Shown: positions 1,929 to 62,217 of the stretch, in pieces | Layout: every line of letters begins with the position of its first letter | Position numbering within the stretch: position 1 is the stretch's first letter | Source of the DNA: Gracilariopsis chorda | Taxonomy: Eukaryota; Rhodophyta; Florideophyceae; Gracilariales; Gracilariaceae | DNA: 64,000 bases | Reading direction: 5' to 3' | Assembly: GCA_003194525.1 (NCBI GenBank) | Contig: NBIV01000128.1 | Span: forward strand, 124,001-188,000 | Translations under genes and position numbers: made by a program | Notes under the pieces: model-generated | What the model was told of the DNA's origin: nothing | Seen by the model: the letters and a program-made list of their open reading frames with translations, nothing else | The model's database searches: none

Positions 1929-3017
1929 TTATCTTAGAGTGATGCCACGAAACTTTTTTATCCAGCTTACGATGTCCGGAAGAATTGCTTCACAAGCCCA
2001 AATCGTTTCTTCTTGCTCCGCAACATTGCGTTTATCATAATGTTCTAGTTCGAGGTATAAAATTATGATTTCCACTAGCAGATGGGACACTAAGCAGACT
2101 TCTTTTAACTTTTCTTTAGGTAAGCATTTTGACCACATTTCGAAATGTGTATTTCTGGCTGCTTCGTCGGTGAGAGCATCGAATCTGTTTTCAGTAATTG
2201 TAATATAGTTGAAGAAGGGAATGCCCAAGAACATTTGAGACCAGGCCAGCACGCAAGGGCACCGTTGTGGTACCACATTTGTTTACATGTTATCCATCGT
2301 GAAACATCCGTTGACGAGTGCACTGGAAATGCCATATGAAGCAAAGGTGGTACAACGGTTACCAAATTCATTCGAAAAGACCTGTAATTGCAACAAGTAT
2401 GTAGAAAGAGGACGTTCTAGAAGATGTCGTAGTATTGTAGATGCTCTTGACGCCAACCAGGAAGTTGCTAGGATGGGAAGCCACGTTTGTCGAAGTTAAT
2501 CAACAACACCAACAGACTTGACCTGAAATTTAACAAGGGAGCTCAGTATGAACACATCAAGTCCTTTGTATAACGAAAGAGATCCAAGGTGTAACAGCAG
2601 GCTTAGGTCATCGTCGACGTGAATAAATTTCGGCAGAAACGTAGTGCCAAACGTGTGGACTAATTTCGCCACCAGCTTCGGTTCACAGAATTATGGCAAA
2701 CATATCTTCAAGAAAACACATGTGTCCTGACGCTCTTGGAGTACTGCGGTTACCATTGCGCTCAATGCATGGGACGGTTCTTCAACACGAAGCAAAGTGT
2801 AGTGCCACATATTTGAAACCTGCCTCAAGCTTCCAGGAACAAGGTAAATCTCTTTGGATGCGAGAAATTCATGCACTGAAGTTGACAAATGACGAAGCCA
2901 GCCACGCCCCCACCATGAAACTTTGGCTTTGTATGTACCTACACCTAAGAACTCCGAATGGACGCCAGTTGGAAGATTTGCGACATCAAACGTAGAGTGC
3001 ACTGGAAACCAATCCAT
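1929..3017 (-). pseudogene. APH-fold kinase-like fragment, copy 2 (catalytic residues lost)
   Basis: The frame at 1929-2276 aligns with copy 1 around the metal-binding loop: CVLAWSQMFLGIPFF here against CFYDWGSSFIGIPFF there, so the Asp before Trp has become Ala. Just upstream, another frame reads LVNGCFTMDN where copy 1 has LVHGDLYFGN, so the catalytic His and Asp are Asn and Cys and a frameshift separates the two parts. The frame at 2691-3017 may supply the N-terminal region. The copies are tandem and in the same orientation. I read this as a duplicated kinase-like gene in which this copy has lost activity and reading frame. Confidence 0.4.
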
Positions 3018-3569
3018 GGCTGCAAGGCTGTCGCTTCCTGCCCAGTGATATCTGCTTAGGATACTCGACAGGTGCTCACCATCGAATATAATAACTACAT
3101 CGTTGTATTAAGGTGGAGTATCGGGGTTGAACAAGACAAGATTTTGGGCGTAACCAAAAAGGGAAAGAGAGCGGGTCAGCGCTTCGCAAAGGTCGTCGAG
3201 TTGTGTGCTCTATGACTCAGTCCACGGGACTTTACCAGTTTTAGGTGGGCACACTTGTGGCAGCATGTACCTTTCGCCAACTTTTGCCACAAGCAGAAAA
3301 CATCTTTTGGCAGCTCGAATGAGCAGGCGAAACACATTAGGTGCTCCGCCATGATTCGCCTCGTGCTACAGTGGGTTGGAAAGGTGGGTGGTGGTTGCCA
3401 CCTCCAGTTTCACATTTTGACTTGCAGACTGCAAGTTGAGTTGAGCTCATGCAGTTGCGGGTGCGCAGTATCCATTGTCACACGTGTTACGTGTGCGCAA
3501 CCATGTCATGCGACACGTGACCCCGCACTGCGTGGCTTCAGAGAGGGGCGTCATTGAATGGCTAGCGAG
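3018..3569. other. non-coding stretch, no feature recognised
   Basis: No frame shows family resemblance. The right part is rich in CACGTG-like words and leads into the tandem repeat at 3570. Confidence 0.35.
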
Positions 3570-3727
3570 GACGAGCACCAGTGTTGAGGGTATAACCACA
3601 ACCTTAACTCGTTCATATACGTGACACACACGTATTACGTGAACGTTCGACGACGAGCACCAGTGTCGAGGGTGTGCCCACACCTTTAACACGTTTACAT
3701 AGGTGTCACACACGTATTACGTGAACG
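3570..3727. repeat. tandem duplication, two units of about 80 bp
   Basis: Unit 1 (3570-3651) and unit 2 (from 3652) both begin GACGAGCACCAGTGT and end ACACACGTATTACGTGAACG, with scattered substitutions between them. Both units contain CACACGTATTACGTG, a short near-palindrome. Confidence 0.8.
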
Positions 3728-3764
3728 CGTTTGGTAGCTATCTGGACGTTCTTCTTAGCTAGCT

Positions 3765-4017
3765 GTTAGCGCTGCAAAAGAGCAGCGCCAAGAATTTTTA
3801 TTGTTGTGTCTGTGTGTTCCTTTTTTTTGCTTTCAAGTTCATTGTGTAACCGAGGGCAGTGAAGCAAACTTACTTATATGCTTCTCGGTTGTAACAGAAC
3901 TCTTACACGTGGCAAGCAGCTGGAGGTTTACTTGCCATGATACTGAATAGAATACAGAATAGCAATGTCGTTGCTAACCTATGTCATTGCTGCCTTACAC
4001 GTGTTTCACACGTATGA
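3765..4017. repeat. interspersed repeat, uninterrupted copy (empty site)
   Basis: About 250 bp from GCGCTGCAAAAGAGC to TTTCACACGTATGA. The same sequence recurs at 8634-8737 and 10992-11133, where it is split by a 2.25-kb DNA transposon. The unoccupied target here reads GCAAACTTACTTATATGC. The repeat may be a solo LTR or MITE-like unit; I could not fix its termini. Confidence 0.85.
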
Positions 4018-4182
4018 AACGATCCCCTCCCCCGCGCATGCCACGGGTTCCGCACTTGAACTCTACATAAACTGTAGTCAACCTCTTCAAGTTGTCTCTC
4101 GTAGCTTGTGTGATATAGAATCGCCTTCCGACTGTTTTTCAACTTCTGATAAACGGTCGAAAGTCAATGTTCGCGGATTCCT

Positions 4183-5238
4183 TTGTACAGGATCAGAGTT
4201 GCAACTGCGGGTGGCCGACTCAACATAGGTTCACAGTTTAGTCTGTGCGCTCTTTTAGCTACAATGCAAAGTCGGAATCCCCCAAAAGAGCGTACACCAC
4301 ATTTTGCTCGACTGCAGCCAAGCAATCCTCCAATATGTCGTTCTTTGCGTTATCGTCCCCCTTATTCAAAGTAGTTCCACTGCGATCAACCATTTACTCC
4401 TCGTGCTGATACTGCGGATATGTTTCATGAACTCTTAAAAGAAAGTGGAACTTTAGATTCAAACTCTGCCGGCACTTCTACGTACGCTTCTTTTTCTTCA
4501 TCAGGTGGTAATCGGCAATCTTCTTCGAGTAGTTCGTCTTCTCTACGTTCTTCTCATATTTCTGCAGGTGGATCATCTTCGAATTCTGTTCAAACGTCAC
4601 GCGATGAGTTGGCCATTGAAAAGCTATTGGTTTAAGATGGAACCAGTCTTGGAAACAAAATGTTTCGACACGGAATGGTTTATGCATGTGCGTCGTCTCC
4701 AGGTGGCATTGATCAATTTCATGAGATTGATATCAACTCAATTTCACTTTTCAATGAAGACGGGGACTCTGTGTCCCGAACCATGATTGCTGACACTCCA
4801 CATGCACGGCGCCAAAATCCGCAGAAGAAATTTCGTGTTCGCTTAGGTGTTTCGTCATCTTCTACTCCTGGTAGACAGGGGTATACCCAAAGGATATTGG
4901 ATGCCATTCGGAGATATACAGGATGTAGCATCATTATTGGAAAACCTGCTGCTCGTTCACCTGTCCCTGGCCTACGACACTTTCATGATCCCCACTGTCA
5001 CAGGCCATTCCAGCACCAGAATAGCGGCAATATTTTTCTTGCTGCTGCTACGAACTGCGCCTATCAGATGGCTCTGTACCATTATAGGTTGAGCACGAAA
5101 GCTGCAGAGTTTGCAGGTCGACTGGAGAATGCAATGTTTCAGTTTACTCATGTACTGGCAAGTGTTGCTAGTGCATCAAATGCAATTCAAACTTCTGGTC
5201 TCGGGCTTGACCTTCGACGTATACGAAACTACATGTAA
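4183..5238 (+). pseudogene. unidentified open frame with two in-frame stops
   Basis: One reading frame stays open from 4183 to 5238 apart from a TAG at 4372-4374 and a TAA at 4633-4635. The middle part is a Ser/Gly-rich low-complexity tract (runs of eight or more Ser around 4520-4560); the last 190 codons have mixed composition with a basic segment around codon 40 of that part. I recognise no domain. It may be a decayed host gene or a transposon-borne ORF. The following gypsy relic is on the opposite strand. Confidence 0.3.
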
Positions 5239-32277: not shown

Positions 32278-35200
32278 TTACACCGACGCTGCAACGCGCT
32301 GTTGGCGACGGGTTCCAGCCTTCCGTATCTCTTCGAGGAACTCTTTCACGAGAGTAGGAACGTCTTCCTGCATCAGCTCGAGAGATACCCAATCGTTTTC
32401 GGTTTCGTCGAAACCTTTCCAGCTTGTCAAAAGCTGCACAGTTCCGTCGCGGACCTTTATGTCCTGGAACTCTTTGACCACCAGGAGCTCATTCTCCTGG
32501 TACGCCAGTTGGTTGCGGACCTCTTCCGTTATCTCGAAGTCCTTGTTTCTGAAAAACTTGAGGCGGCGTCCATGGACCTCACTGCGCGCTCCCGTCAGTA
32601 GGTCCTCGACCTCGAAGATGTATTCCGTCAGACAAGCAGTTACGCGGTACGGTCCTCTCCAGCGGACCGACGGCTTGCGTCCACGATCCTTGCGGTAGAC
32701 TCCACGAAGTACGTAGTCTCCTTCTGTGAAGTTGATGGGGCGAACGTTAGTGCGGTTGTTGTGTCTGCGAACTTCGTCCTCGCGTTTCTTTGATGTTGTC
32801 CGAACCACATCACGGTGCATGTCGTCCAATGCGCTGTGCAAATCCTCAATAGTCATCAACTGCTTGGCCCTAATCTCTTCTATGGTCTTGATCAGAATTT
32901 TGTTCTGGACACTGGATTTGACGGATAAAAGGGGATTGTTCTGAGGTAGACCCGTGAACACATTTAACGGACAGCGATTACCGAGCCGAGTTAAAGGAGA
33001 ATTGTTGAGCACAGATTGTACCAGCGGTACGACCGACGGCCATGAACGTTGTGGGAGTTGGAACTCGGACAGTAGTGCCCGCATCGCTCGAAGTAGCTCG
33101 CGGCAAACGACCTCTACTGTTCCGTTGCTCCATGGGCAATAGGCCAGCGTGAAATGGTGCGAACCGTTGGTTTGTTCACGGAGAGCGCGGACGACTTCAT
33201 TCTTGAAATGCGTGCCCCTGTCAGAGACCCACTGTACCACGGTGCCAAATGACGCAAACCATGACAATAGCGCATTTGCTGTGGATACAGCATCGGCTTC
33301 GGTGGTTGGCACGAGCCAAACGTACCCGCTGAAGTCGTCCTTGATGACGAGCACGTAACAGAATTCATCTTCGCCTTTTGAAATGTAGCAGTAGTCGAAG
33401 TGAATCATCTCATTGGGTTTCCCGGCGTGGAGAGCGTGGCCGAGCGGTCTCGGGACGGTTTCTCCAGTTTCGGTTGCGAGACAATGTAGGCAAGAGCGAA
33501 CAAAGGTTTCCACATCCTTCGTAATGGAGGTCCACCAGAAGTGAGCTTTCACGGTAGTCAGCGTCGTACGCCAACCTCTGTGTCCACCTAATCCAGTGTG
33601 AGCCGCGATCAATATACGTAGCTGCAGCAACTGATCTTCTTCCGGAATCCAAACAACACCGTTCTCGTTGACCAGAATTTCGTTCTGTTCAGAAAAAGAT
33701 TTGCGTGCACTTTCCTTGTGCTTGCGTTGAGATTTCTTGATATCTTCAGGCCTTGGCCAATCGAGTTTCGGATCCAAATGCGGCGAAACTGGCGCCAGCA
33801 TGAGTGACTTCAACCTGCGAAACCTGGCAACGCGGACGGTTGACTTTCCTTGCACTGCCCATCGAGTTAACATATCAGCCCACACATTCCGTTCACCAGC
33901 TAGATGCTCAATGACGTACCTGAACGCGCTGAGCTTTACCGCCCATCTCATCAGTTTGCAAGCGGTATGTCTGGCCATACCCGGATTCTGACCGTACGGG
34001 TCGAAAAGGTAGACCAGGTTGGCGTGGTCGGTAAAGATGGCTACTGTTCTGCCCATGATGATGTAGTCTAGCCGACACATGGCTTCGACGACAGGGAACG
34101 CTTCTTTTTCCGGCACACTCCAGCTGCGTGCAGGACCAGTGAAGGCGCCTGAGAGGAATGAGAGAGGCTCGTGGTCCTGCTTCTCTACTTCCTTCTTGAT
34201 ATCTTCCCGGGATACCTGAGTAAGAATGGCTGACCAATGTGTCTCCGAGGCATCTGTGAATAAGCACAGACAACTATTCTGCTTCGGGTGGGCAAGTTCC
34301 GTGGAGCGAGCTAATCTTTGCTTGATGATAGCGAAAGCAGAATCATGTTCTGCACCCCATAGGCTTGCGAGAGGGATCTTGGACACCTTGCGTTTCGTTC
34401 GTCCTCCTGCCTGCTGGTATACGGATTCCATCAGTTCATGTAGCGGTGCTACAATATTGGCATAGGAAGGGATAGATGTGCGCATCCAGTTTGTAGCGCA
34501 AAGAAACTGTTGGAGATCACCTCCCAATGTTGGCGTGCGCATCTGGATAAGAGCATCCAGTTGGCGCGGATCGAAACGTACACCAGAGGCAGAGATGGTG
34601 CGTCCGCAGAACTTCGCCTCCTTCAGGAAGAGTTGAGATTTCTCGGCATGAATCTTGAATCCGTACTTTTCACAGACGGCGAAGAAAGCTTCCAAAACAT
34701 CAAGGAGCTCTTCTTCGGAAATAGCATGAAGGAGAAAATCATCAAGCCATTGGAGGAAACGCTTGACCTTTTCTTGAAAAGCAGAATGAGTGACTGCTTG
34801 ATAGTGGTTTCCTGCATCCGTGCTGCCCTGCAACAGACGCGTTGAAGAGTAGACACCCAGCGGGGTCTGTATTGACATCATCTCTTGGGATTCGGTGGCA
34901 ATCGGGATCTGCCAGTAGGCATGTGCCATGTCAACTTTAGCGAAGCATGTGCTACCCTGTACGGTTTGGAGCTGTGACTCCAGATGAGGCATAGCCGAAA
35001 CTATTGGCTCCGTTTGAGAATTCGGTCCTCTCAAGTCCACAGTGAATCGAAACCCTTCGCTGCCCGGCTTAGGCACAGCTAAGGCAGGGCTCGCCCAACG
35101 GGCTGTCGGATTCTTGAAAACAGCGCCAACCTTCTCGAGTTTACGAATGGTGCTTGCGATGAAAGCTGTCTGCGGCGGAGCGTATCTTCGCTGAGGTGAG

Positions 35201-36888
35201 CGGAAAGGAGCGGCGTTTGCCTTGGGTAAGATGGTGAGAGGTGTCACCTTGGCTGGAGGATCAGGACCAAGTTGGATACGGAAAACTTTCCTGTACCGAT
35301 TCAAAGATGTCGAAAGCATGGCACAGCCTTTCTCGGACATCCCATTCTCTTTCGCTTCCTTTAGCATTCTATTGAAAGCTTTGTCGATGTCTTCCTTCTT
35401 GTCGACACCGATGTTTGCACCTGCAGCCTCTGGCAAATCAATGGGATCATCATCGACTGAATTGTATCGCATTCCGTTGTATGCAGCTCGCGCTATCTTC
35501 ACCTCCGATCCATCGAGTTCGTCGAAACTTTTTCCGTGCAGCGTCTGTCCGACGTTCTCAAGGTGGGACTTCAGGTTAAAACCCATCTTCTTCAGCAACG
35601 GGCGTCCCAGCAGGACCTCGTCCATGGCTTGGTCGACAACCAGGAAAGGAATATGGTGAATTCGAATCGGCAAATTTGTATTTGGAAGCATTATGGTCAC
35701 AGATAGCTTCACTCTGCGTGAGGCCGTGAACGTGATCGGGTTTTCGTGGGACCCACGGATTGCGGGGCAAAGTGATACCTTCTCAGGAAGTGCTTCGTAC
35801 TGTAGATCCGGGACGGCAGCAATCAACTTCTCGAACTGGACGAGAGACAGTGCACTTTCGTCAGAGCCGTAGTCGCCTAAGGCCACAAATGGTACTGAGT
35901 CCTCAATCATTACCTTGTAACGGCCCTCTTCTTCATCGGTATGATCTTCACCTTGTGCACGGACGCTTTTGAAACGGGCAGGACTCGGCTTCCTCTTTCC
36001 AGCGCGGTACTCGTCGAGCAACTCCTTCTTCCGTTCCTCACTCGAGTTTGGACACTCCATGACCCGGTGAATACCGTCACAGTCCGGGTTGAGACAAGGC
36101 TTGTCCCAGGTGGAGCGAGACTTGTCGCTAGCCCTGGCCTTCGGATAGTTTTGGCGCGGATTGGGAGTCGTTTTCTGCTTCCTTCTGGGACCAGAATATT
36201 TTTCTGTTCCCTCAGCATCGAAAACACGCTTGCCTTTGCGTGGTGTACGCTTGTTCAACCTGCCGCGGGCAATTTCACCCTGAGCTACCTCAACCGCTAT
36301 GGCACTGACACGAGTCTGGAAGAAGGACAAGCTAGACTTCTGTTCACCAGTCCAACAGTCCCTAGCGGAGCGGATGCGTTCGCGAAGCTCTGGCGGTTCG
36401 AGCTTCTGCACGAGTTTCCAAATGAGGGACTTGCAAGTCTCCTTGTCATCGATTACTTCAGAAGCGTTGTTTTTGTCGAGGGCGCTCACGATTTTGACGA
36501 TGAAACTTAGCGCGGCTCCACTGGGGTCTTGCTTGTTCACCTCATACTTGACGGTCTCTAGGGCAGAGCGCACGCGTTCAGTCAAATCCTCCGGAGCGGT
36601 TTCTAGTCTGGTATCAAACCAGGCCTTCACACTTGTGTCAGTAGACTGGCCGGCGTTAGATGCGCCCTCGATTTGCCGAAGTAGACACAGGCTCTGCAGT
36701 AGCACAGGGTCGAGGCACTGTCGAATGGTTGCAGGAACAATCTGGCGAGAGGCATCGCGTGTGCGATTAAGATCGTTGACTTTTTCCTTGTACGCAGTGT
36801 ACTCAATGTCAAATTTGATAAGGTCGGGCTGTGTGACATCCTTCAGAACAGGAGCATTCAGTGTTGATACAACTCCGAACGAAGACAT
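32278..36888 (-). CDS. gypsy 3 gag-pol polyprotein (1536 aa)
   Basis: ATG at 36888. Domains in order: a gag-like helical region (1-240); a zinc knuckle CLNPDCDGIHRVMEC (about 265-279, CX4CX3HX4C); and a retropepsin with active site DYGSDES (about 339-345, Tyr replacing Ser/Thr). RT runs over about 560-760, with VDMAHAYW and the active-site triplet LDD in FLQWLDDFLLHA near 716. RNase H covers about 870-1010 (FTDASETHW, EKEAF, FTDHANL, RNVWADMLTRW). Integrase has an HHCC region (AHTGLGGH ... CLHC, about 1096-1137) and D, D, E at about 1165, 1223 and 1259. A chromodomain-like end (LLTSWKGFDETENDWVSLE, about 1487-1505) follows, which in related elements can bind histone marks to guide insertion. 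Gag and pol are fused without a frameshift. All catalytic residues I can locate are present, apart from the Tyr in the protease signature. Confidence 0.95.
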   Translation of the reverse strand: MSSFGVVSTLNAPVLKDVTQPDLIKFDIEYTAYKEKVNDLNRTRDASRQIVPATIRQCLDPVLLQSLCLLRQIEGASNAGQSTDTSVKAWFDTRLETAPEDLTERVRSALETVKYEVNKQDPSGAALSFIVKIVSALDKNNASEVIDDKETCKSLIWKLVQKLEPPELRERIRSARDCWTGEQKSSLSFFQTRVSAIAVEVAQGEIARGRLNKRTPRKGKRVFDAEGTEKYSGPRRKQKTTPNPRQNYPKARASDKSRSTWDKPCLNPDCDGIHRVMECPNSSEERKKELLDEYRAGKRKPSPARFKSVRAQGEDHTDEEEGRYKVMIEDSVPFVALGDYGSDESALSLVQFEKLIAAVPDLQYEALPEKVSLCPAIRGSHENPITFTASRRVKLSVTIMLPNTNLPIRIHHIPFLVVDQAMDEVLLGRPLLKKMGFNLKSHLENVGQTLHGKSFDELDGSEVKIARAAYNGMRYNSVDDDPIDLPEAAGANIGVDKKEDIDKAFNRMLKEAKENGMSEKGCAMLSTSLNRYRKVFRIQLGPDPPAKVTPLTILPKANAAPFRSPQRRYAPPQTAFIASTIRKLEKVGAVFKNPTARWASPALAVPKPGSEGFRFTVDLRGPNSQTEPIVSAMPHLESQLQTVQGSTCFAKVDMAHAYWQIPIATESQEMMSIQTPLGVYSSTRLLQGSTDAGNHYQAVTHSAFQEKVKRFLQWLDDFLLHAISEEELLDVLEAFFAVCEKYGFKIHAEKSQLFLKEAKFCGRTISASGVRFDPRQLDALIQMRTPTLGGDLQQFLCATNWMRTSIPSYANIVAPLHELMESVYQQAGGRTKRKVSKIPLASLWGAEHDSAFAIIKQRLARSTELAHPKQNSCLCLFTDASETHWSAILTQVSREDIKKEVEKQDHEPLSFLSGAFTGPARSWSVPEKEAFPVVEAMCRLDYIIMGRTVAIFTDHANLVYLFDPYGQNPGMARHTACKLMRWAVKLSAFRYVIEHLAGERNVWADMLTRWAVQGKSTVRVARFRRLKSLMLAPVSPHLDPKLDWPRPEDIKKSQRKHKESARKSFSEQNEILVNENGVVWIPEEDQLLQLRILIAAHTGLGGHRGWRTTLTTVKAHFWWTSITKDVETFVRSCLHCLATETGETVPRPLGHALHAGKPNEMIHFDYCYISKGEDEFCYVLVIKDDFSGYVWLVPTTEADAVSTANALLSWFASFGTVVQWVSDRGTHFKNEVVRALREQTNGSHHFTLAYCPWSNGTVEVVCRELLRAMRALLSEFQLPQRSWPSVVPLVQSVLNNSPLTRLGNRCPLNVFTGLPQNNPLLSVKSSVQNKILIKTIEEIRAKQLMTIEDLHSALDDMHRDVVRTTSKKREDEVRRHNNRTNVRPINFTEGDYVLRGVYRKDRGRKPSVRWRGPYRVTACLTEYIFEVEDLLTGARSEVHGRRLKFFRNKDFEITEEVRNQLAYQENELLVVKEFQDIKVRDGTVQLLTSWKGFDETENDWVSLELMQEDVPTLVKEFLEEIRKAGTRRQQRVAASV

Positions 36889-44745: not shown

Positions 44746-45663
44746 ATGACATCACATCCCCCAAACACACTCTCGCCAATCGACGAATGGCATTCCAACT
44801 TCAACCAACAAGTTTCTGCGCTGCGGCAGCTTCTTCCTCTGCGTTCGGCTTCTCAATCAGATATGGAAGACGAGGAATTGCGTGCAGCGTTCAATGCTAC
44901 ATCTTCTTCGCTGGCAGACGTTGATCACTTGTTCGCTTCTTTGTTGCAGTACATCGAACACGAAGAAACCGAGCTTTCCCAACTCTCTAAACTGCTCGAA
45001 AGGCTGCAAAGGGTTTCGACCCAGATGCGTTACATCGAAAAACAAATGCCCGCCGAACTTCGAGACTCCATCAGTGCTCAGACCCCCAAAAACACAGCCA
45101 CTACGCCAAAGCTGAAGCAGAGCTCAAGTGGAAAAACCCCGAAACATAGCCCTGTGAACAAAACCACACCCGAGGTATCCCGCACAGGCCGTCGGACAAA
45201 GCAGCCTACCGGCAAAAGCCTATCGAAACCAAACACAAAAACATCTCAGGCCAAGCACAAAGAAGACACTCGTAACAGAAAGGTGTGCGATACGCCTCAG
45301 ATTCGCCATGTGTCACAGGAAGAGCTCGACGAAGCCCCACAATACGTCAAAGGACGTCTCAACGTTGAGAAAATCAGTGTTGTTGTTGATAAGCTGAACG
45401 AAGTCCTTGATAAGAAGTACGCCCTCCTCAACAAACCATTTCGGGAACTTAGCTCACAGGAAATGACCAAATACGAAGATCTTCGAGACGCATTTTGTCC
45501 TGAGGTGAAGGGAAAAGATTTCATCACAGACAATGAGATTAAAGGTTTTGGGGGCTGTCGCATGGACGCTACCGTGAAGTCTGTCATTAATATTCTCAGA
45601 CATGTCGGGGCTATGAAGGAAGTCCGTGGCAAGAACAGGTCACGCATTTTTATCATCAACTAG
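44746..45663 (+). CDS. SKA1: spindle and kinetochore-associated protein SKA1
   Basis: A 305-aa intronless protein. Residues about 1-105 form an N-terminal helical region like the coiled coil that assembles with SKA2/SKA3. Residues 110-180 are a Thr/Lys/Pro-rich linker with TPK-type sites. Residues about 185-305 match the SKA1 winged-helix microtubule-binding domain: APQYVKGRLNVEKISVVVDK, LNEVLDKKYALL, then VKSVINILRHVGAMKEVRG, with RIFII at the end. The family motif is PKYMKGRLTYDQIN in human. SKA couples kinetochores to depolymerising microtubules in mitosis. A SWIB-type winged helix was considered and rejected because the YxKGRL motif is diagnostic. The stop overlaps the convergent TPK gene by 8 bp. 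Confidence 0.93.
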   Translation: MTSHPPNTLSPIDEWHSNFNQQVSALRQLLPLRSASQSDMEDEELRAAFNATSSSLADVDHLFASLLQYIEHEETELSQLSKLLERLQRVSTQMRYIEKQMPAELRDSISAQTPKNTATTPKLKQSSSGKTPKHSPVNKTTPEVSRTGRRTKQPTGKSLSKPNTKTSQAKHKEDTRNRKVCDTPQIRHVSQEELDEAPQYVKGRLNVEKISVVVDKLNEVLDKKYALLNKPFRELSSQEMTKYEDLRDAFCPEVKGKDFITDNEIKGFGGCRMDATVKSVINILRHVGAMKEVRGKNRSRIFIIN

Positions 45664-49332: not shown

Positions 49333-51029
49333 TGTGAACGTCTGCAGCTCACAACTTCGTACTGTGATCTGTCCTCACAACTATGAAGGGAGTCCGGTTA
49401 GAGTATGGAGTAATATGCGAACCTAGAACAACTGTGTATCACCAGCGTGATGACCTGGGTGATGGCACAACTTAAACCAGATAGCAATCAAACCGCATGC
49501 TGAACAAGATCAAGAGTTGAAGACGCTTATGTTGCGCACAGTGAAATTCGCACCACGCAAAGTCTAGAAGGCTGAAAGGTTAGCTGCGCTGCTAGCCGTT
49601 CTATGACTTCATTCACTAGTCTAAGCGATAACTGATTTCATCCAATAGGTGTATGACGCAGTTGCAACATCATTGTGAGAGGGCTCCCCAGGAGAATACA
49701 AAAATTTTGGTCATGAAACGGGGTCAATTTTCCCATTCACAGTGGAAAAATAAGGTCAGATGGCTGAAAAAGTCCACTGTTCCACACCTCATTTCTTGGT
49801 TTTCGAAAGCATACTTCAAAAACATAATTTTCAAAACTTCACTCAATTTTGGACGAAGTCTTTTCAATGGTTTGCCACCACTTCTCAGAGCATAATCACT
49901 GATGCGCAGACCTGTCTTTCTCTTCAGATCGAAAGCACATCTTCTAGAATTGCTTCACTTCGACTTAGCGAGGTACGTTTTCCTCTTCAAACAATATCAA
50001 CCAAGACACTGACATCCCACTTAGCTCTACCTGCAATCTGTCGCACCGTTCTTCATCATCATCGCGACACTATCGGCAAATTCAAACACTAAATTCAAAA
50101 AAGAGTAACCACTCTTTTTTATTCAACATCATGCGTCGGATACTTGGATAGCTCGACTTTTAAATCTCCTTTTTGAAGGGTTTATGAATATTGTTCTAAT
50201 CTCTGGAACCAAGCATGTAAAAATAGCAGTCATTCTCTCTGTTGGGCCATTTAACCACTCATACAAACACTTGTTGAAATAAATGACCATTTCTTACTTG
50301 AAGACCTTTGTCAGCTCATTACGTGCGTTCAAGAACATTCAACTATACGCTAGTTTTTAAGAAACTTACAGGCACGGTTTTAACCTAGTGGTTTTTTTGA
50401 CAACAACAATTGACTTTAGTACGAAGCTAAAACATTTAAGAAACAGTGCGAAGCATCAGCACGCGCCTCCATCCATCAATGAGCTTGAACCAATTTCTAT
50501 GCTTCTTGAACCCATGCAACTCTTTCTTACACATCCAAACCTTTGACCGTAACCGTGGCAACAATTCTACACAAAAACGGGCTTCGATCGGTGATTTACT
50601 ACTAAAACTACTCCGAAATGCCCGTAAGCATGACTTTCGTCTTCCACCTTTTAGTTCCCTGGTACACTCATAACACGAAAAGAAGATCCTCTAGACGCCT
50701 AGCCCAATTTGGCAATGTTAGGTTGAAAAGAGGTAGTGCATTGGTAGGTACTGCCTCAAACCGATTACTTTGCCTTATAATGAGTGCATTCAAGTCAAGT
50801 TCTAGTCTATGGGGATATGTATATAACTTGAAATTCTTGTCACTCTTCCATTGGCCTCGGTATTTGATTTCCCGATCCCCGGGTCTTTTAAAAAGCTTGT
50901 TCGTTCTTGCCACACAACACTGCAACATAAGTGGCATCACTTCAAAAGGCAACTTTAATCGCCTAGAAGAGCGTTGCAGCATAGCTCGAAACCGGGCAGG
51001 AGCGTATGGAAAGAAACTGTGGTGCAATG
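49333..51029. other. 1.7 kb without recognised gene
   Basis: AT-rich sequence with short frames and no domain. The last few hundred bases, where GC content rises, may belong to the structured element that follows. Confidence 0.35.
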
Positions 51030-51635
51030 CCCCAAAGGGGAAAAACACCGAAAGACGTTCGGGATCTTCCTCTCACGAGGTGAGCCCAGTTGGGTAGAGC
51101 CCTCTCAGAGGTGTCACGGCGAAGCCGGTTTGTAAGACCAGGGACACCTGTCGCGACTCGCGCAGGGAGGTGAAGGCGAAGAATCGGTATCCGCGTGAGC
51201 GGGGTGTGATCCTCAGTAGAGGTATTTTTCCACGTAAGTGGGGGTGTGTGAGCGGATGCGCACACGAGGGCCGCGGATAGCGGGAGGTGCTACCCTAAAA
51301 AGGGGGAAAAGGAAGGGCGAAGAGGAGGAAGAGAGGACGATGTGAGTCGCGAGAGCGACGAACAGATACGGCGATGCCGGTAACAATATCCGTATACAGG
51401 GCGAAACACCAATATGATTGGAACAATTGTACTCCCAAGGATGGGCTTCTTTAGATGTGCAAGGGGGTTAGATGTCCCGTGGTTTACGGCGTTTCCCTCC
51501 AAGGAGGAGTAGAGTACGCGCGCAAGCGGCAACAACTAGAGCCAATTCCCCAGGTTGGGGTCCCTTGTTGGGGAAGGTTTACTGGTGCGACGGCAGTGCG
51601 CCGTCGCACTAAGTACTAGCTTCCCAGAAATGGGT
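51030..51635 (+). ncRNA. candidate large structured RNA (group II intron-like or unknown)
   Basis: A purine-rich 0.6-kb segment packed with short perfect hairpins, many capped by GNRA loops: CCGC-GTGA-GCGG (51191-51202), CCAC-GTAA-GTGG (51230-51241), GTCGC-GAGA-GCGAC (51346-51359), CGC-GCAA-GCG (51519-51528) and CCCA-GAAA-TGGG (51623-51634). A three-way junction is closed by AGGTGTC/GACACCT (51109-51115 with 51143-51149), and a 10-bp stem lies at 51585-51609. GTGAGCCCAGTTGGGT at 51080 resembles the 5-prime end of group II introns (GUGxGCCCAGxUxGGGU). I did not find a canonical domain V or an intron-encoded protein. The strand is set by the GNRA loops. An organelle-derived insertion is possible. 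Confidence 0.45.
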
Positions 51636-52627
51636 GTGAAAATAATACATAATATTAACTATAATACTCCACATTTCGTGGCAACATCCACTACTGTGGC
51701 CAACCGCCAATTGACCCAAAACCGTGTCCCACGTGTCCATATCCACCATAGTGGGGCGTAGTTCATATACACACTACACAACCGATAATATCGGGAAAGC
51801 GTTCAAGTACCAAGAATCCCTCCCTGAGGGCGTTGCACTTCAGAAACCTCTGCACTGAACCAATTTTTCGACGCTCTACCAGTCTGTTCATAAGCCTTAC
51901 TATGGCATGGAGTTGAATTGTCACCGTTTTGTTCCGACCCGTTTTTCCGATAGTAATACTCATCGCTGAATAGTGTGATTTTCGGCTTCAGACACCCCAA
52001 AATACGATATGACCAGCCTTTAGCTGTATTAAGTCTCCTACTATTAGATACCCTTCAAAATGCAATAAAAAAGCAATTTCAACAACCGCTTGGCCATTGC
52101 TGACCACTTCAACTGCAATGGCATACACGATTATTTCAAGGCACACACCATGGTGCGACCTACGCTTAATCACGCCTCATCCACGCAGACATAGCTCAGA
52201 AAGAGTCATTTTTCGTTGCAAATGCGCCATATAGAATTCCAAAGCACATTTCCTCTGAACTGGCCCCGATAACTTTAAATCAAGATTTTGGTTGTAGCGG
52301 TACACAAATTATCTTGTGAACAACCGATGGATATCTCCATCAGTGGCAAACTGCTGTTTCGATTCGCTTAAGGTCTCTCTCAGGCATTTCCCATCCTTTT
52401 CTTGGCAATAAATGAGATGAGCGAGAGAGGCAGTCTGTATGAGATTTAATCTCATTTCAGAGTCACCCGTTCTCGCCTGTTTCCACTGCAAATGCACCTG
52501 CCAACACCTAGCGCCTCCACGGAAGAGAGCGACGTTCGCCGTCACTCGAATGCGGCCGCGCGGAGGCTGGCTCGTCTTACTCGCCTCTCACTCTCGATTT
52601 CGCTCACTCATGCTGCGAGCGATGTGA
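51636..52627. other. no gene recognised
   Basis: The left 120 bp still contain small hairpins (CCAC-TACT-GTGG near 51690, CCAC-CATA-GTGG near 51746). Beyond that no structure or frame stands out. Confidence 0.3.
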
Positions 52628-56684: not shown

Positions 56685-59191
56685 GGTTATGGACCCTACG
56701 CTCACGCGGAAAAAGCCAAACCATCCCCACACATAACTTCGAACATACTGAACGTCAACCACACCCATTACACACAACGGCGCCCCACCCATCGCGCCTC
56801 GCTCGCTGCCATGGTCGCGAGCTACGACAACAACCCTACATCCAAGAATTATTCGAAAACGCCATTCTGAACCACAGAGACAACCACGAACCCCAAGATA
56901 CAACACAAGCCACCATCATAGCCACAGAAGAAATCCAGTCTAGCTCAGTTACACACCCCCACCAACTAAACTCCGTCCACCCTATCATGGACATCGAAAA
57001 TTTTCCCAAACTGCCCCAACTCGACCGTACCAACTACGCACCATGGTTTCTAGCCCTGCAGATCTATGCAGCTACCATTAAGGCGTTGAACCACCTTGAC
57101 TGCAATCCGTCGACACCAACGGACCCCCACGTCGTCAAGACGTACTTCGATGGCAAAAAGATGCTCCAATCTGCGGTTCTTAGCAGTGTACCCTCGGAAA
57201 TATTAGAAGTGCACATCCTGCCACAAGGCCGACCTACACCACATGAACTAGTAGCCAAAATCATTACCCACATAAACCGCCCCTCCAAATTAGATCATCA
57301 ATACTTGGAAACCGAAGCTCAGAGTACTGCCTTCAAAGATGAGGAAGATATCGACGATTTCATTAAAACTCACAAAGAAATCCGACAAAAAATGGAAGCT
57401 ACCCCAACATCGACGACGAGGAAACGACTGTTGATTTCATGATCGCAGGAATACGTCGAAACACCATCAGCACACCCATTCTCGACCATATCCTCACGCA
57501 CAAACCCTACACAAGCAAAGATTTCACTCGAAAGTTCAAGGATTTATACAACCTATATCAACCTCATACAACACGGCTGCAACAACCGCAAAACATTCTC
57601 GGTGACTATGGACTTCCCCAACGTGGATTCACAGGGTATTTCCAGTTCACTCCAACCCCATACCGATACCGAACTCCACAGACGCAGTTCTGCCACCAGT
57701 ACAACCGACGACCAACCCCTCCCCAGCGATGAGTCCCACCTCACCAACTTTGCACTTTCCATATCAATATCAGATTATTCTGCAACCACACTGACCAGGA
57801 ATGCAGAGATTCACAACACCCCAAATTCATCAAGCCACAGGCTCACTACGGTCAGGGCGGTCCTGCTTACATCCCACACTCTTACTATCACCAAGCCTTA
57901 CCACCATCACACTAATATCAACAACAACACTCCGTCCCATCTACCCCATTGCACGCCGAGTCACCATCCGAAATGGACGCTGAAGCCAAGAGTACGTATA
58001 TACTTGACAGCGGAGATTATCCAACTTACGTCCCGAAACCGACAGCTCACATGACCTCACTTAAAAGCCCCACCCTACCTGACGCCACTGCCTTCCAGCT
58101 CACACGTTGCACACACCATGAAACCCTCCGCCTCCACCCGCCAGCGAGTAACCACCTCATCTGCACAGACAGTGTAGTGAAACCTCACATGCGACATAGA
58201 TTACTCTCAGTTCACGACTTAGCCGAACGATATGGCCTATTAACATTCACCCGTAAAGCTGGCTACATTGTAAACACGAAGAAGCCACATCACAAGATCT
58301 TACCCATGGCCCCATGCAGAAACAACCAATTGTAACTCCAAGCAACAACCTTAGGAACAACGAAGGCAAACAGAGTACGAATCTTCGCACATAATCCCAA
58401 TAAGAGTCCCAGAGCATACGCCACCCCACGCCCCCAACCTCCCACTCACAAAACACTCCAGCAACAATCATCCCTTCATAAACCAACACTAACGATAACT
58501 GGACAGGTCCTATCACTGACAGCCTGTCCTGAGGTACCAGAACTCTGTCGCAGCTTAAAAACACCACGACAGTCCCACCCAGTGCGCCCCTCAGACAGAC
58601 AGCTTTCAAATGGCACCTTCGACTGAACCATGCACATCCCAAAGAACTATCCCTCACCGCGCACAGGGACCTCATCCCCACCATGCCCACCTCCCTCCCA
58701 TCCCGTATAGAGATCACATGCAGCGCATGCAGTCACGGCAAACTACACCCTGCTCCCCACAAACGCACCACACACCATTATGAACCAAAAGCCTTGGTAA
58801 ACTCAGATACCTGCGGCCCGATCAAACCCACTTCCCGCCAGGGCGAGAACACGTTCTCATCATCATATGCGCCGCCTCTCGCTTCGTCATCGCACACTTC
58901 ATACGGGACAGGAAAGACATCCCAAAATACATCTAGCACGCACTCCAGTATCTATGACATCGGGTGCAACTCCCACAAACCGATTTCCAAAGCGAAAATG
59001 CACTTGAGTATACCTCTCAAAGAATGCAAAGCATTTTTCGACACCACAACATCACACATCACCTCCGCACATAACAACAACCTCAAGAGAACTCAATTGC
59101 GGAACGGTTTAACCACACAGTTATGGAAGCCTCCTGTGCCCTCTGTAGAGCAATGCGTGCGCGCATACCCTGTAGACGAGGTGGATCATAA

Positions 59192-60158
59192 ACGATGCAA
59201 TACCCACGTGGCATCGGTTCAACTCAGGTATGAGTGGACCCTCGGAAATATTGCGTGAAAATCGATATGAACTTTGATTAACATTTTTAGAACCTTTGTA
59301 GGTGATTTCTGTGGTATCTGGAACAGATGGACACATGGCGAGCGTACGGATATTATTCAAGGTTTACATGATTCACACGTGTCTTGTTGCGCAGTGGCTG
59401 GCAGTGTTGCCAAGTGACACAAGAGTGTGGACTACAACTGTGGCACACTACAGCAGTAGTATTCGTAGATTGTTGTGACCCAATAGTACTTAAGGGAAAA
59501 CGGCCTTGCCGTTTCAACCTGAATTAAAGACAGGCTCTGAATGGGCTCTGAGTTTATCGCCTGTGCGAATTGATCAACTTCTACTGGAGTTTCACAGCGT
59601 TCGATCTCGTTATATTCACCCGCACAGTATCAATAGGGACCACTGATCTGTCTTACCCCGTGGGTTCGCCCGGTGTTCATTGTTTTAACCGTTTTGGTTA
59701 CTTTCTATTGTGGGAACAGATAGCCGTTCGACTCTGTATTGAGTTTGGCAATGCTGGCTGAACAAGCAACACCTCTCACCGCCAGGTCTCTTTCGGCTTT
59801 CCGTACGACCCGCCCGGCTGTACCTTCCCTTTTGGTTTCTCCCCTTTTTTTCTTTGCCTGTTCTGGATTCTCCGTGGAGCGGAACGCCGCTCACACGAAT
59901 CTGTGCACTACGCTGACCAGCTGGATACCCGATGTTTGGTATCACCTCCGTCGTTATAGCCGGAAGCCACCTCACTTTTACACCCAAACACCAAGTGGTA
60001 CGGAGGGCCCTGTCTCTGTGCCTACGTCACAAGAGAGCAACGATGCGAACACCTTGGGAGGATTTCCCGCCTAGGGATATTGCTCCTCCCGCTCCTGAAC
60101 ACCACAAGACTTGATGACGCCTTCTGAGAAGATGCAGCTCTAGATGCGATATTCAAGT
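59192..60158. mobile_element. unclassified 0.97-kb insertion inside Copia 2 integrase
   Basis: Integrase coding stops after the codons for RRGGS and resumes as LHHAAIETSPYTKW about 970 bp later. ATAA flanks both sides (59188-59191 and 60159-60162). The insert encodes no recognised protein and has no clear inverted repeats. Its middle (near 59480-59520) has TTAAGGGAAAACGGCCTTGC and could be a solo LTR or a non-autonomous element. Boundaries are inferred from the integrase break and are approximate. Confidence 0.55.
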
Positions 60159-62069
60159 ATAACCTACTACACCATGCCGCAATAGAAACATCACCTTACA
60201 CCAAATGGTGTCACACCACCTCAACAATCATACACATCTATGACTTCGGCCAGTTCGGCACGATACCTGTATATACACCAAAGGCAAAACTTCAGCCTCG
60301 AGCCGAGCATGTACGTTACATGTACCCCGCCTCTCTCACCCACATAGTGGTATACAACCTGAAGGCACACCAGTACCAACCAATACGCGTTACCGATTTT
60401 GAGCAGTACCACAGTCACACTGACTGCACAGCCGTCGCCCATATGGCACTTACGGATAGCGCATATAGCAAACTCCCCATACCCACCTCCATAGATGTCG
60501 ATACCCCACCCTTACCAATCTCAGACAAGCTCAATTGTACCGTGACGCCAATCAATGGAAAACAGCCCACGATGAAGAGCTCGCCAACATCGACCAACAA
60601 AACAGCATAAAATGGCTCCACCAAAACTTCGTAGCCCCCACAGACGCCATCATACAATTGACAATGATTTACAGGTACAATATATCAGACGATAGATAGT
60701 TTCACAACGGAAAGCGAGATGGAACCTCAGAGGCGACCTAATGAAACCGGGCATCCACTACGTCCCACAATATACTACCACATACACAGCAGACAGAACA
60801 ACACAGCCCATCCTCCTAGACCTCCATGTCCACGAAAACTTACCAATCGAACACTTCGACATAACATCCGCATACCTGCATGAAACATAACAACAAGATA
60901 AACTAGTGTGTGTCTCCCAGATGCCCTTATTCAAAGGAAAGTACAAACAACCAGGTAAATACGGATTGATCCGCGGAAATCTATACGGATCTCCTCCGCC
61001 AGCATATTACTATAACAACGCTCTTGGCATCTTCCTAGCACATCTCAAATTCACGCCATCAGAACATGACCCATGCCTATACCTCAAAGTCACACCCCAC
61101 GGCTACATAGTAATCATTGAAGAAATACACCAACAACTTTTGACCAAGTACCAAATCAAACGATTGAGCCGACCAACCCACTTTGTCAGTTGGCACATTG
61201 ATTACCATCAAAACAGCAGCATTCATGTCTCTCAACCAGATGCCATAGCAGCTCTCCTTAAGCAAAACAACATGTCAGAATGCAACCCAGCACTTACCCC
61301 GTATAGCTCACTCACACCTATTGATCAGACATCGCTCACAACCCCCTTAACGCCAGAAAACTCAACAAAACACCGCCCAATACTAGGGACAATACGCCAT
61401 ATCACCAACAGCACCCGCCCGGAGCTTAGATATGCGACTAACCGTCTTGCTAAGCACATGGCAGCACCCCAGAAGAACCATTTGCAGGCAATGAAGACAC
61501 TGCTACGGTACATAAAAGGCACGAAGACTCACGGAATCCTCTTCAAAATAGCACCGATGCCCAATTCACAACGACAGTTAGCATCATATAGTGATGTAGA
61601 TTATGCAAACTTGAAGAACCGAAAATCTATCACCGGCAGTATTCAAACAATTGCGAGCAAGCCACTGTCATGGCTTTCAAAACGGCAATCAATAGTTGCA
61701 CTGTCCACAACAGAGGCGGAATACATTGCCGTTACGCAAGCCAAACAACATACACAACGGTTACGCAAACCCCCGCTCTCTGCAAACGTTAAGCAACAAA
61801 CAGCTCCGCACTACATTGACAACCGCAGCGCTATATTGATAGCATCAAACCAGACACCAACGAAACGCCACAAATACATCGACATCCACCATCACTACTT
61901 AGAACACCATGTGGAAGACAAAACCATACAACTACACCGAATCTCGACGAACGACATGCTGGCAGACATCTTAATTAAACCATTACCTTGCGATCATTTC
62001 CGAGAACTTCTTCAACGACTTCACATCACAGCCCCACCTTACTTAAAATACAATGAACCAGACGGGGAC

Positions 62070-62217
62070 TGTCAAACATTCAACTGAATTTTGCTGCATT
62101 GCATTTCCTGCAGAAGTCAAACATTGCTGTACAGTAACCACAGAGCAGATAAATAAGCCCTCGGGCAACGAGCTCCAAGTAAACTGAGGAGGTAGCAATC
62201 TAGTGCCTTTATTCACA
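62070..62217 (+). repeat. 3-prime LTR of Copia 2 (148 bp)
   Basis: TGTCAAACAT, then about 45 extra nt ending in a second GTCAAACAT, then sequence matching the 5-prime LTR (CTGTACAGTAACCACAGA) to TTCACA. Confidence 0.82.

Follow-up and report, generated by a model that had tools for sequence, protein, structure and literature searches.

Retrozymes and other ribozyme-bearing LTRs hold structured elements inside their LTRs, and GORS is a property of folding energy. In the available part of the respective sources, GORS is described as structure that spans a whole genome, coding part included (PMC9784701), and RNA viruses such as MS2 are described as having many dispersed, exchangeable stem-loops in a genome that goes with a coat-type protein (PMC6281560). 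Here, we describe an array of small hairpins in an LTR retrotransposon, found through one LTR copy in the window, the 64-kb stretch of DNA analyzed in this study. Like retrozymes, this element has structured elements inside its LTRs; however, the window copy has no match to an Rfam ribozyme, and the full-length copy codes for gag-pol domains. As in GORS, to judge from the same part of that source, the array covers the whole element including its coding part (PMC9784701), but the gain in folding energy is small in the window segment and the excess consists of one narrow class of hairpins. With the dispersed packaging signals of MS2, as the available part of the source presents them, it shares members that are many and exchangeable (PMC6281560). 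Unlike in these signals, no shared loop motif was found in the present hairpins, size and a basal C-G pair being common instead, and they are far denser, at about 30 per kb, their binding by a protein being putative. Because no loop motif is shared and the effect is not mainly one of energy, we place the array under neither packaging signals nor GORS. In the literature titles and abstracts searched, whose coverage leaves out most subscription journals, there was no precedent for such a hairpin array in a retrotransposon. The novelty would lie in the array, the LTR and the element as such being ordinary additions to known kinds.

A hairpin-dense segment is part of a solo LTR

An earlier note, made from the sequence alone, had described positions 51030-51635 of the window as denser in hairpins than expected by chance. 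Counting non-overlapping, perfect hairpins with a stem of at least 4 bp, a loop of 3-5 nt and at least two G/C in the arm, we found 21 on the plus strand against 4.55 ± 1.85 in 200 dinucleotide shuffles, in good agreement with that claim, and 20 on the minus strand against 4.49 ± 1.83 (200 dinucleotide shuffles). The 10-bp stem that it reported is present (Table 1), as is the purine bias (59.6%), and ORFs of 50-159 aa overlap the segment. The five GNRA loops that it listed were also recovered, all on the plus strand (GTGA at 51191, GTAA at 51230, GAGA at 51346, GCAA at 51519 and GAAA at 51623), the GCAA loop on a stem of just 3 bp. On stems of at least 4 bp, four GNRA loops were observed against a mean of 0.1 and a maximum of 2 in 300 shuffles. 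The sense strand of the element is the minus strand of the window, and there the named loops are not GNRA. Folding energy, which had been proposed as a check, was better than that of shuffled controls, but modestly so (z of -2.9 on the plus and -4.0 on the minus strand, 20 shuffles each); across eight 140-nt pieces, z ranged from -0.1 to -4.9 (200 shuffles each) and fell below -2 in two. This segment stands out by how many small perfect hairpins it has and not by its overall stability.

The genome to which the window belongs, probably that of a red alga (91.3 Mb in 1081 contigs), was searched with 801 bases around the segment, and the best 40 of 1888 candidates were scored. The 39 non-window matches among these best 40 had an identity of 97-99% and started at query positions 111-120. 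The opposite edge was fixed by a second query, for which the best 40 of 1660 candidates were scored. Together, the two queries define a unit that begins with TG, ends with CA and is flanked by GAAAC on either side (Table 1). The region is hairpin dense as described, but the limits of 51030 and 51635 were too narrow, the feature being the whole LTR.

A single copy with a 5-bp duplication was found at six further loci (L016, L020, L023, L024, L034 and L036), and other LTR copies form same-strand pairs 8-11 kb apart. Since the window copy is a single LTR with TG..CA ends and a short direct target duplication, as against the paired copies elsewhere, we conclude that it is a solo LTR. Its solo state and intact duplication indicate that it is probably a relic of LTR-LTR recombination. 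The nuclear setting assumed by the earlier note fits such a dispersed repeat in a genome of this size.

Table 1. Features at the window locus (positions count from the first base of the window)
Feature	Position	Strand	Basis
Solo LTR, 825 bp, TG..CA, subfamily A of a Ty3/gypsy chromovirus	51018..51842	-	Edges: repeated copies and 5-bp duplication; strand: PPT and PBS in paired copies
Target-site duplication GAAAC, first copy	51013..51017	.	
Target-site duplication GAAAC, second copy	51843..51847	.	
Array of 28 perfect hairpins (stem at least 4 bp, loop 3-5 nt), 24 of them C-first	51030..51830	., same positions on both strands	Hairpin list
10-bp hairpin that starts with G and so departs from the C-first rule	51585..51609	.	

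The Rfam searches lent no support to the group II intron 5' end that had been suggested at 51080. No match reached the gathering score in the whole 64 kb, and up to E = 10 no intron family matched within the 1.7 kb from 50500 to 52200, where only two weak non-intron matches appeared (pemK, E 0.11; CAESAR, E 4.5). Around the segment and up to E 10, we thus rejected a group II intron (no match to an intron family or to domain V) as well as a group I intron (no match to a family model). This check, which the earlier note had itself proposed, speaks against its reading of an intron or intron remnant, and so does the finding of a solo LTR, complete with target-site duplication, to which the segment belongs. 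A retrozyme was rejected too, the LTR of the window copy having no match to an Rfam hammerhead ribozyme. A plasmid collection gave no match; the viral contigs, searched with an RT piece of 160 aa, yielded one stretch that matched a pattern and no relative.

The LTR belongs to a Ty3/gypsy chromovirus

In the paired copies, a G-run (PPT) stands just before the LTR, and 3 nt past it lies a PBS that matches the 3' end of a host tRNA plus CCA over 21 nt, both on the strand that corresponds to the minus strand of the window. A 19-letter pattern of the tRNA end occurs at 513 places in the genome (at most two mismatches), compared to 3 for the reversed pattern. The tRNA gene that matches the PBS (L040) has an intron; it reads by eye as tRNA-Tyr(GUA), but ARAGORN is inconsistent, calling Leu in one run and Asn in another. 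This gene (1435-1520) and a second one (L039, about 1430-1521) have a common 3' end, with the extra sequence placed differently. Both look like intron-bearing tRNA-Tyr genes, one intron being perhaps in the D arm; ARAGORN gave the two no consistent name.

A full copy of 9,909 bp (L049/L050) was read frame by frame. Its frames match the Pfam families RVT_1, RT_RNaseH_2, Integrase_H2C2, rve and chromodomain in the order RT, RNase H, integrase, as in chromoviruses, and the chromodomain (PF00385, E 2.9e-10) lies in the last frame, after the integrase. One CCHC zinc knuckle is present in the gag frame and an LDTGA motif in the next frame (two copies), and the gag frames had no match to a gag family in Pfam up to E 10. 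The Pfam domains together with the CCHC and LDTGA motifs identify the element as a Ty3/gypsy chromovirus. It has the RT, RNase H, H2C2 and rve integrase domains, the chromodomain, the CCHC knuckle, the LTRs with a 5-bp duplication, the tRNA-primed PBS and the PPT in common with this group. It differs in that its PBS pairs with the intron-bearing tRNA, a tRNA-Tyr by eye on which ARAGORN was inconsistent, and in the array of size-limited, mostly C-first hairpins throughout, which is absent from a distant gypsy piece of the same genome (L088).

At 2259-5148 of locus L051 (contig G000:C257), three A LTRs stand in tandem, with two identical spacers of 208 bp between them; the spacers have 95% identity to part of the gag/protease region in the full copy (2990-3197 in L049). 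On contig G000:C3, three PBS places of the C lineage (L042, L043 and L044, at about 105010, 113821 and 122634) lie 8.8 kb apart and look like a tandem LTR-internal array.

The hairpin array covers the whole element

After dropping matches that ended before base 820, started after base 300, held N or were identical, we kept 74 LTRs, namely 41 of subfamily A, 26 of B and 7 of C. BLAST identity to the window copy, a member of A, is about 71-76% for B and about 60-62% for C. In the window LTR, C-first hairpins of 11-13 nt number 24, compared to 1.64 expected (200 shuffles, maximum 6), and there are 19 in B LTRs (expected, 1.55) and 12 in C LTRs (expected, 1.52). The two 618-nt flanks of the window LTR contain 3 and 1 such hairpins, with about 1 expected in each, indicating that the excess stops at the LTR edges.

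In the full 9.9-kb copy, the array extends over the LTRs, gag, pol and the chromodomain, with about 30 hairpins per kb. All 16 full 500-nt intervals of the internal region showed an excess (12-19 hairpins against 3.8-5.4, z 3.6-10.9), and the count was not significant in its two short end pieces (37 and 223 nt). In 500 nt of internal sequence next to 5' LTRs, hairpins number 11-16 in B copies and 10-13 in C copies. The excess is also present over synonymous-codon shuffles: hairpins were 2.3-3.3 times as numerous in six of six frames of the A copy, and a stretch of the C lineage that is open over 3,498 nt had 104 hairpins against 38.9 ± 5.4. We conclude that the array is written largely via synonymous choice.

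Elsewhere in the window, 126 intervals of 500 nt off the LTR had a mean of 3.5 hairpins and a mean z of 0.25, the highest z being 3.5, at 59000. The stretch from 57000 to 62100 has strong GC and AT skew and lies beside a weak copia RT match at 60906-62087. On the minus strand at 32278-36888, the window holds an open gypsy frame of 1536 aa with RT, RNase H and integrase domains and without the C-first array. It contains 60 hairpins against 46.7 (z 2.3), with C-first (21 against 12.1) and G-first (20 against 12.2) alike, and no excess of C-first hairpins of 11-13 nt over synonymous shuffles (13 against 10.3). The other window frames tested had a hairpin z between -1.7 and 1.9. Two copia RT pieces (L084 and L085) and the distant gypsy RT piece, all of the same genome, had hairpins at expectation.

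The hairpins form one narrow class with a preferred spacing

In the A copy, the array is one narrow class of hairpins of 11-13 nt, with a stem of 4-5 bp, a loop of 3-5 nt and C as first base, mostly CC..GG. C-first hairpins with stem 5 and loop 3 number 68 against 2.3, those with stem 4 and loop 4 number 99 against 10.1, and those with stem 4 and loop 3 number 46 against 10.1. Stems of 3 bp are at background, stems of 6 bp and longer are few, and loops of at least 7 nt are not enriched in this copy. The excess in its two internal parts is one of C-first hairpins (106 against 14.6 and 85 against 12.3), as compared to G-first (17 against 14.0 and 9 against 11.8), A-first (10 against 8.7 and 10 against 6.4) and T-first ones (16 against 9.8 and 6 against 6.6). 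Across eight pieces taken from A, B, C and E, we counted 89 cases of CC-N9-GG whose three inner pairs are Watson-Crick, against 2.5 expected.

In 3.5 kb of the C lineage, C-first hairpins number 68 against 10.8 and G-first ones 5 against 10.3, and A-first (16 against 7.0) and T-first ones (15 against 8.1) are in excess too. In 1.6 kb of E, there are 29 C-first hairpins against 4.3. In 2 kb of D, the total is 55 against 19.3, with C, A, T and G first in 21, 13, 12 and 9 cases (expected, 6.0, 3.9, 4.3 and 5.1) and CC, AC and TC as the commonest starts; the second base in D is thus preferentially C, after A, C or T. These counts show that A, B, C and E follow the C-first rule, which is looser in D.

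We found no loop motif common across the parts of the element, and we rejected GNRA as the organizing loop, since it accounts for 0 of 8 C-first sense tetraloops in the A LTR, 0 of 9 in B LTRs and 1 of 8 in C LTRs. In the internal region of A, 10 of 81 C-first sense tetraloops are GNRA, with 2.7 expected; in the A LTR, all 8 C-first tetraloops start with T.

Neighboring C-first hairpins of the A copy (234 gaps) are rarely less than 5 nt apart (7 gaps against 37 expected) and commonly 5-11 nt apart (78 against 42). The median centre spacing over the whole copy is 24-25.5 nt. Centre distances have a period of 20-20.5 nt with a z of 6.3, the 95% level of the null's best z being 3.3-3.5; a further test gave a z of 5.8, with 0 of 300 null runs as high and a block bootstrap range of 19.95-22.5, and a second copy of the A family, which is not independent, gave 6.4. 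Distances below 70 nt show this periodicity strongly and longer ones weakly. The first internal part (z 6.7) contributes most of it, and neither the last internal part (z 1.3) nor the LTR alone (z 0.6) reaches significance. The C lineage has a neighbor peak at 20-23 nt and a lattice that is not significant, and no significant lattice was found in B, D or E.

Stems show signs of constraint and single hairpins turn over

For covariation, hairpins were called on one subfamily and scored on another, with 1000 shuffles per test, using the LTRs and 33 internal pieces of at least 600 nt with the PBS present (16 A, 9 B and 8 C). Between A and B, the two directed tests on the LTR gave 6 and 7 two-sided Watson-Crick changes, where 0.89 and 1.57 were expected; on the first 1.48 kb of the interior, they gave 7 and 9, where 1.28 and 2.21 were expected. 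In each of these four tests, 0 of 1000 shuffles reached the observed count. In eight directed tests of A or B with C, there was no excess of paired changes, and C does not retain the hairpin positions. When the structure was predicted from A only, there were 4 paired changes from A to B against 0.36 (0 of 2000) and none from A to C.

For the variant test, duplicates or suspected segmental duplicates were dropped (L011, L013, L027, L043, L044, L059 and L076), which reduced the A LTRs from 41 to 39, the B LTRs from 26 to 24 and the internal pieces from 16 to 15 (A), 9 to 8 (B) and 8 to 6 (C). In the 39 A LTRs, 83 of 230 singleton variants fell in stems, compared to 20 of 102 variants shared by two or more copies (p 0.003), 4 of 54 shared by three or more (p 1.3e-5) and 1 of 42 shared by four or more (p 1.1e-6). 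When the stem mask was rolled along the A LTR, 3 of 2000 shifts were as low (1/43, before duplicate removal). Control arms with loops of 8-20 nt showed no such lack, with 10 shared and 21 single variants on 82 sites, the comparison sites having 45 and 127 on 477. Shared variants did not significantly avoid stems in B LTRs or in internal pieces of A, B and C. C-first stems of B had the opposite lean at the lowest threshold (46/121 shared against 115/411 single, p 0.042); a like lean in internal C pieces (p 0.039) was gone after tandem duplicates were removed (5/17, 34/113). What is borne out of the earlier note's reading is a sequence shaped by small hairpins, on the evidence of the shuffle excess, the compensatory changes between A and B and the stem-avoiding shared variants in A. 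Taken as a whole, its observation is partly confirmed and its interpretation partly supported.

In 24 directed lineage comparisons, 163 hairpins were kept with all pairs Watson-Crick, 104 had one pair broken and 300 had two or more broken, and a further 129 were unscorable. A common 840-nt stretch of RT contains 29, 22, 18 and 15 hairpins in A, C, E and D, respectively, against 7.4-8.7 expected, that is, densities of 34.5, 26.2, 21.4 and 17.9 per kb against about 9-10. Here, 11 of 12 directed comparisons lay above the null mean, most of them within two standard deviations. The remoter lineages thus keep density, not positions. Sense G-U pairs were not favored over A-C (30 against 48, p 0.054, in one count; 19 against 32 in the lineage comparisons), so that minus-strand cDNA or DNA stay candidates for the acting strand beside sense RNA. 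An early hint in B (5-6 G-U against 0 A-C) failed in the later counts, and we rejected wobble asymmetry as proof of sense RNA.

Distributed protein-binding sites as a possible explanation

Lineages A, B, C and E, and more weakly D with its looser base rule, bear tiny hairpins over coding and non-coding parts alike. Starting from the chromovirus solo LTR and this narrow class of hairpins, we infer both binding and its reader, and tentatively propose, at somewhat less than even likelihood, that the array consists of distributed protein-binding sites, with the element's Gag as the most likely reader. The size window, the basal-pair rule and the preferred spacing suggest recognition by a protein and not folding for its own sake. 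One protein would recognize hairpin size and basal pair, the candidate being the Gag nucleocapsid with its one CCHC zinc knuckle, and each hairpin of the genomic RNA or of its cDNA would be one site, serving selective packaging and condensation. If the sites were many and exchangeable, single hairpins could turn over while density and geometry stay steady. Several findings sit uneasily with binding by Gag: the lack of preference for sense G-U, of which a role in sense RNA predicts an excess; the lack of a shared loop motif and of positions conserved to C; stem avoidance that is significant in A LTRs only; a 20-nt lattice carried by the first internal part of A; and some A- and T-first excess in C and D.

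A GORS-like structure that shields the element from silencing would fit the element-wide cover and the median centre spacing over the whole copy, and GORS is linked to persistence and shielding in the available part of the source (PMC9784701). We nevertheless consider such a shield unlikely, as it leaves the C-first rule and the upper limit on stem length unexplained, the gain in folding energy is small, and the two copia pieces and the distant gypsy piece of the same genome lack the array. A role for the hairpins in steps such as reverse transcription, integration or DNA packing, played in duplex DNA or in minus-strand cDNA while it is single-stranded, is likewise improbable. Hairpin pairing is strictly Watson-Crick without a preference for sense G-U, the slight lean is to A-C, the wobble of the other strand, and the arms read alike on both strands; yet we know of no DNA or cDNA step that needs hundreds of such hairpins, and short stems may simply tolerate no G-U pair.

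Template switching in hairpins during reverse transcription, which perfects imperfect ones, could produce perfect pairing without wobble as well as turnover. It would also make paired changes and erase inherited stem variants, which are indeed fewer than singleton ones in A LTRs. However, such correction should lengthen stems, whereas stems of 6 bp and longer are few, and it predicts neither the C-first rule nor the size window nor the spacing, which makes a mutational origin distinctly unlikely. A remnant of a group I or group II intron, or another known structured RNA, would account for several GNRA loops on the plus strand, but in view of the Rfam results (nothing at gathering score, two weak non-intron matches up to E 10) and of edges that coincide with those of the LTR, we give it almost no credence.

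Returning to protein-binding sites, we consider it nearly an even question whether the whole retrotransposon carries a second, protein-read code, made of several hundred interchangeable hairpins of fixed size and preferred basal pair, about 20 nt apart where dense and written largely in synonymous codons, whose preferred basal pair can change from one lineage to the next, as though code and reader co-evolved. If so, a distributed structural code, and not translation alone, would govern which codons a mobile element uses, and the graded strength among lineages of one genome would be a natural experiment on the origin of such a code and its upkeep by turnover. Should Gag be the reader, the array would represent a testable packaging code in an LTR retrotransposon.

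Other features of the genome and the window

On contig G000:C383, copia RT matches recur on one strand about every 2.7 kb between 36202 and 50459 (six seen), in what looks like a tandem array of copia pieces. In the window itself, the plus strand at 44746-45663 holds a gene for the kinetochore protein SKA1 (Pfam E 7.3e-41).
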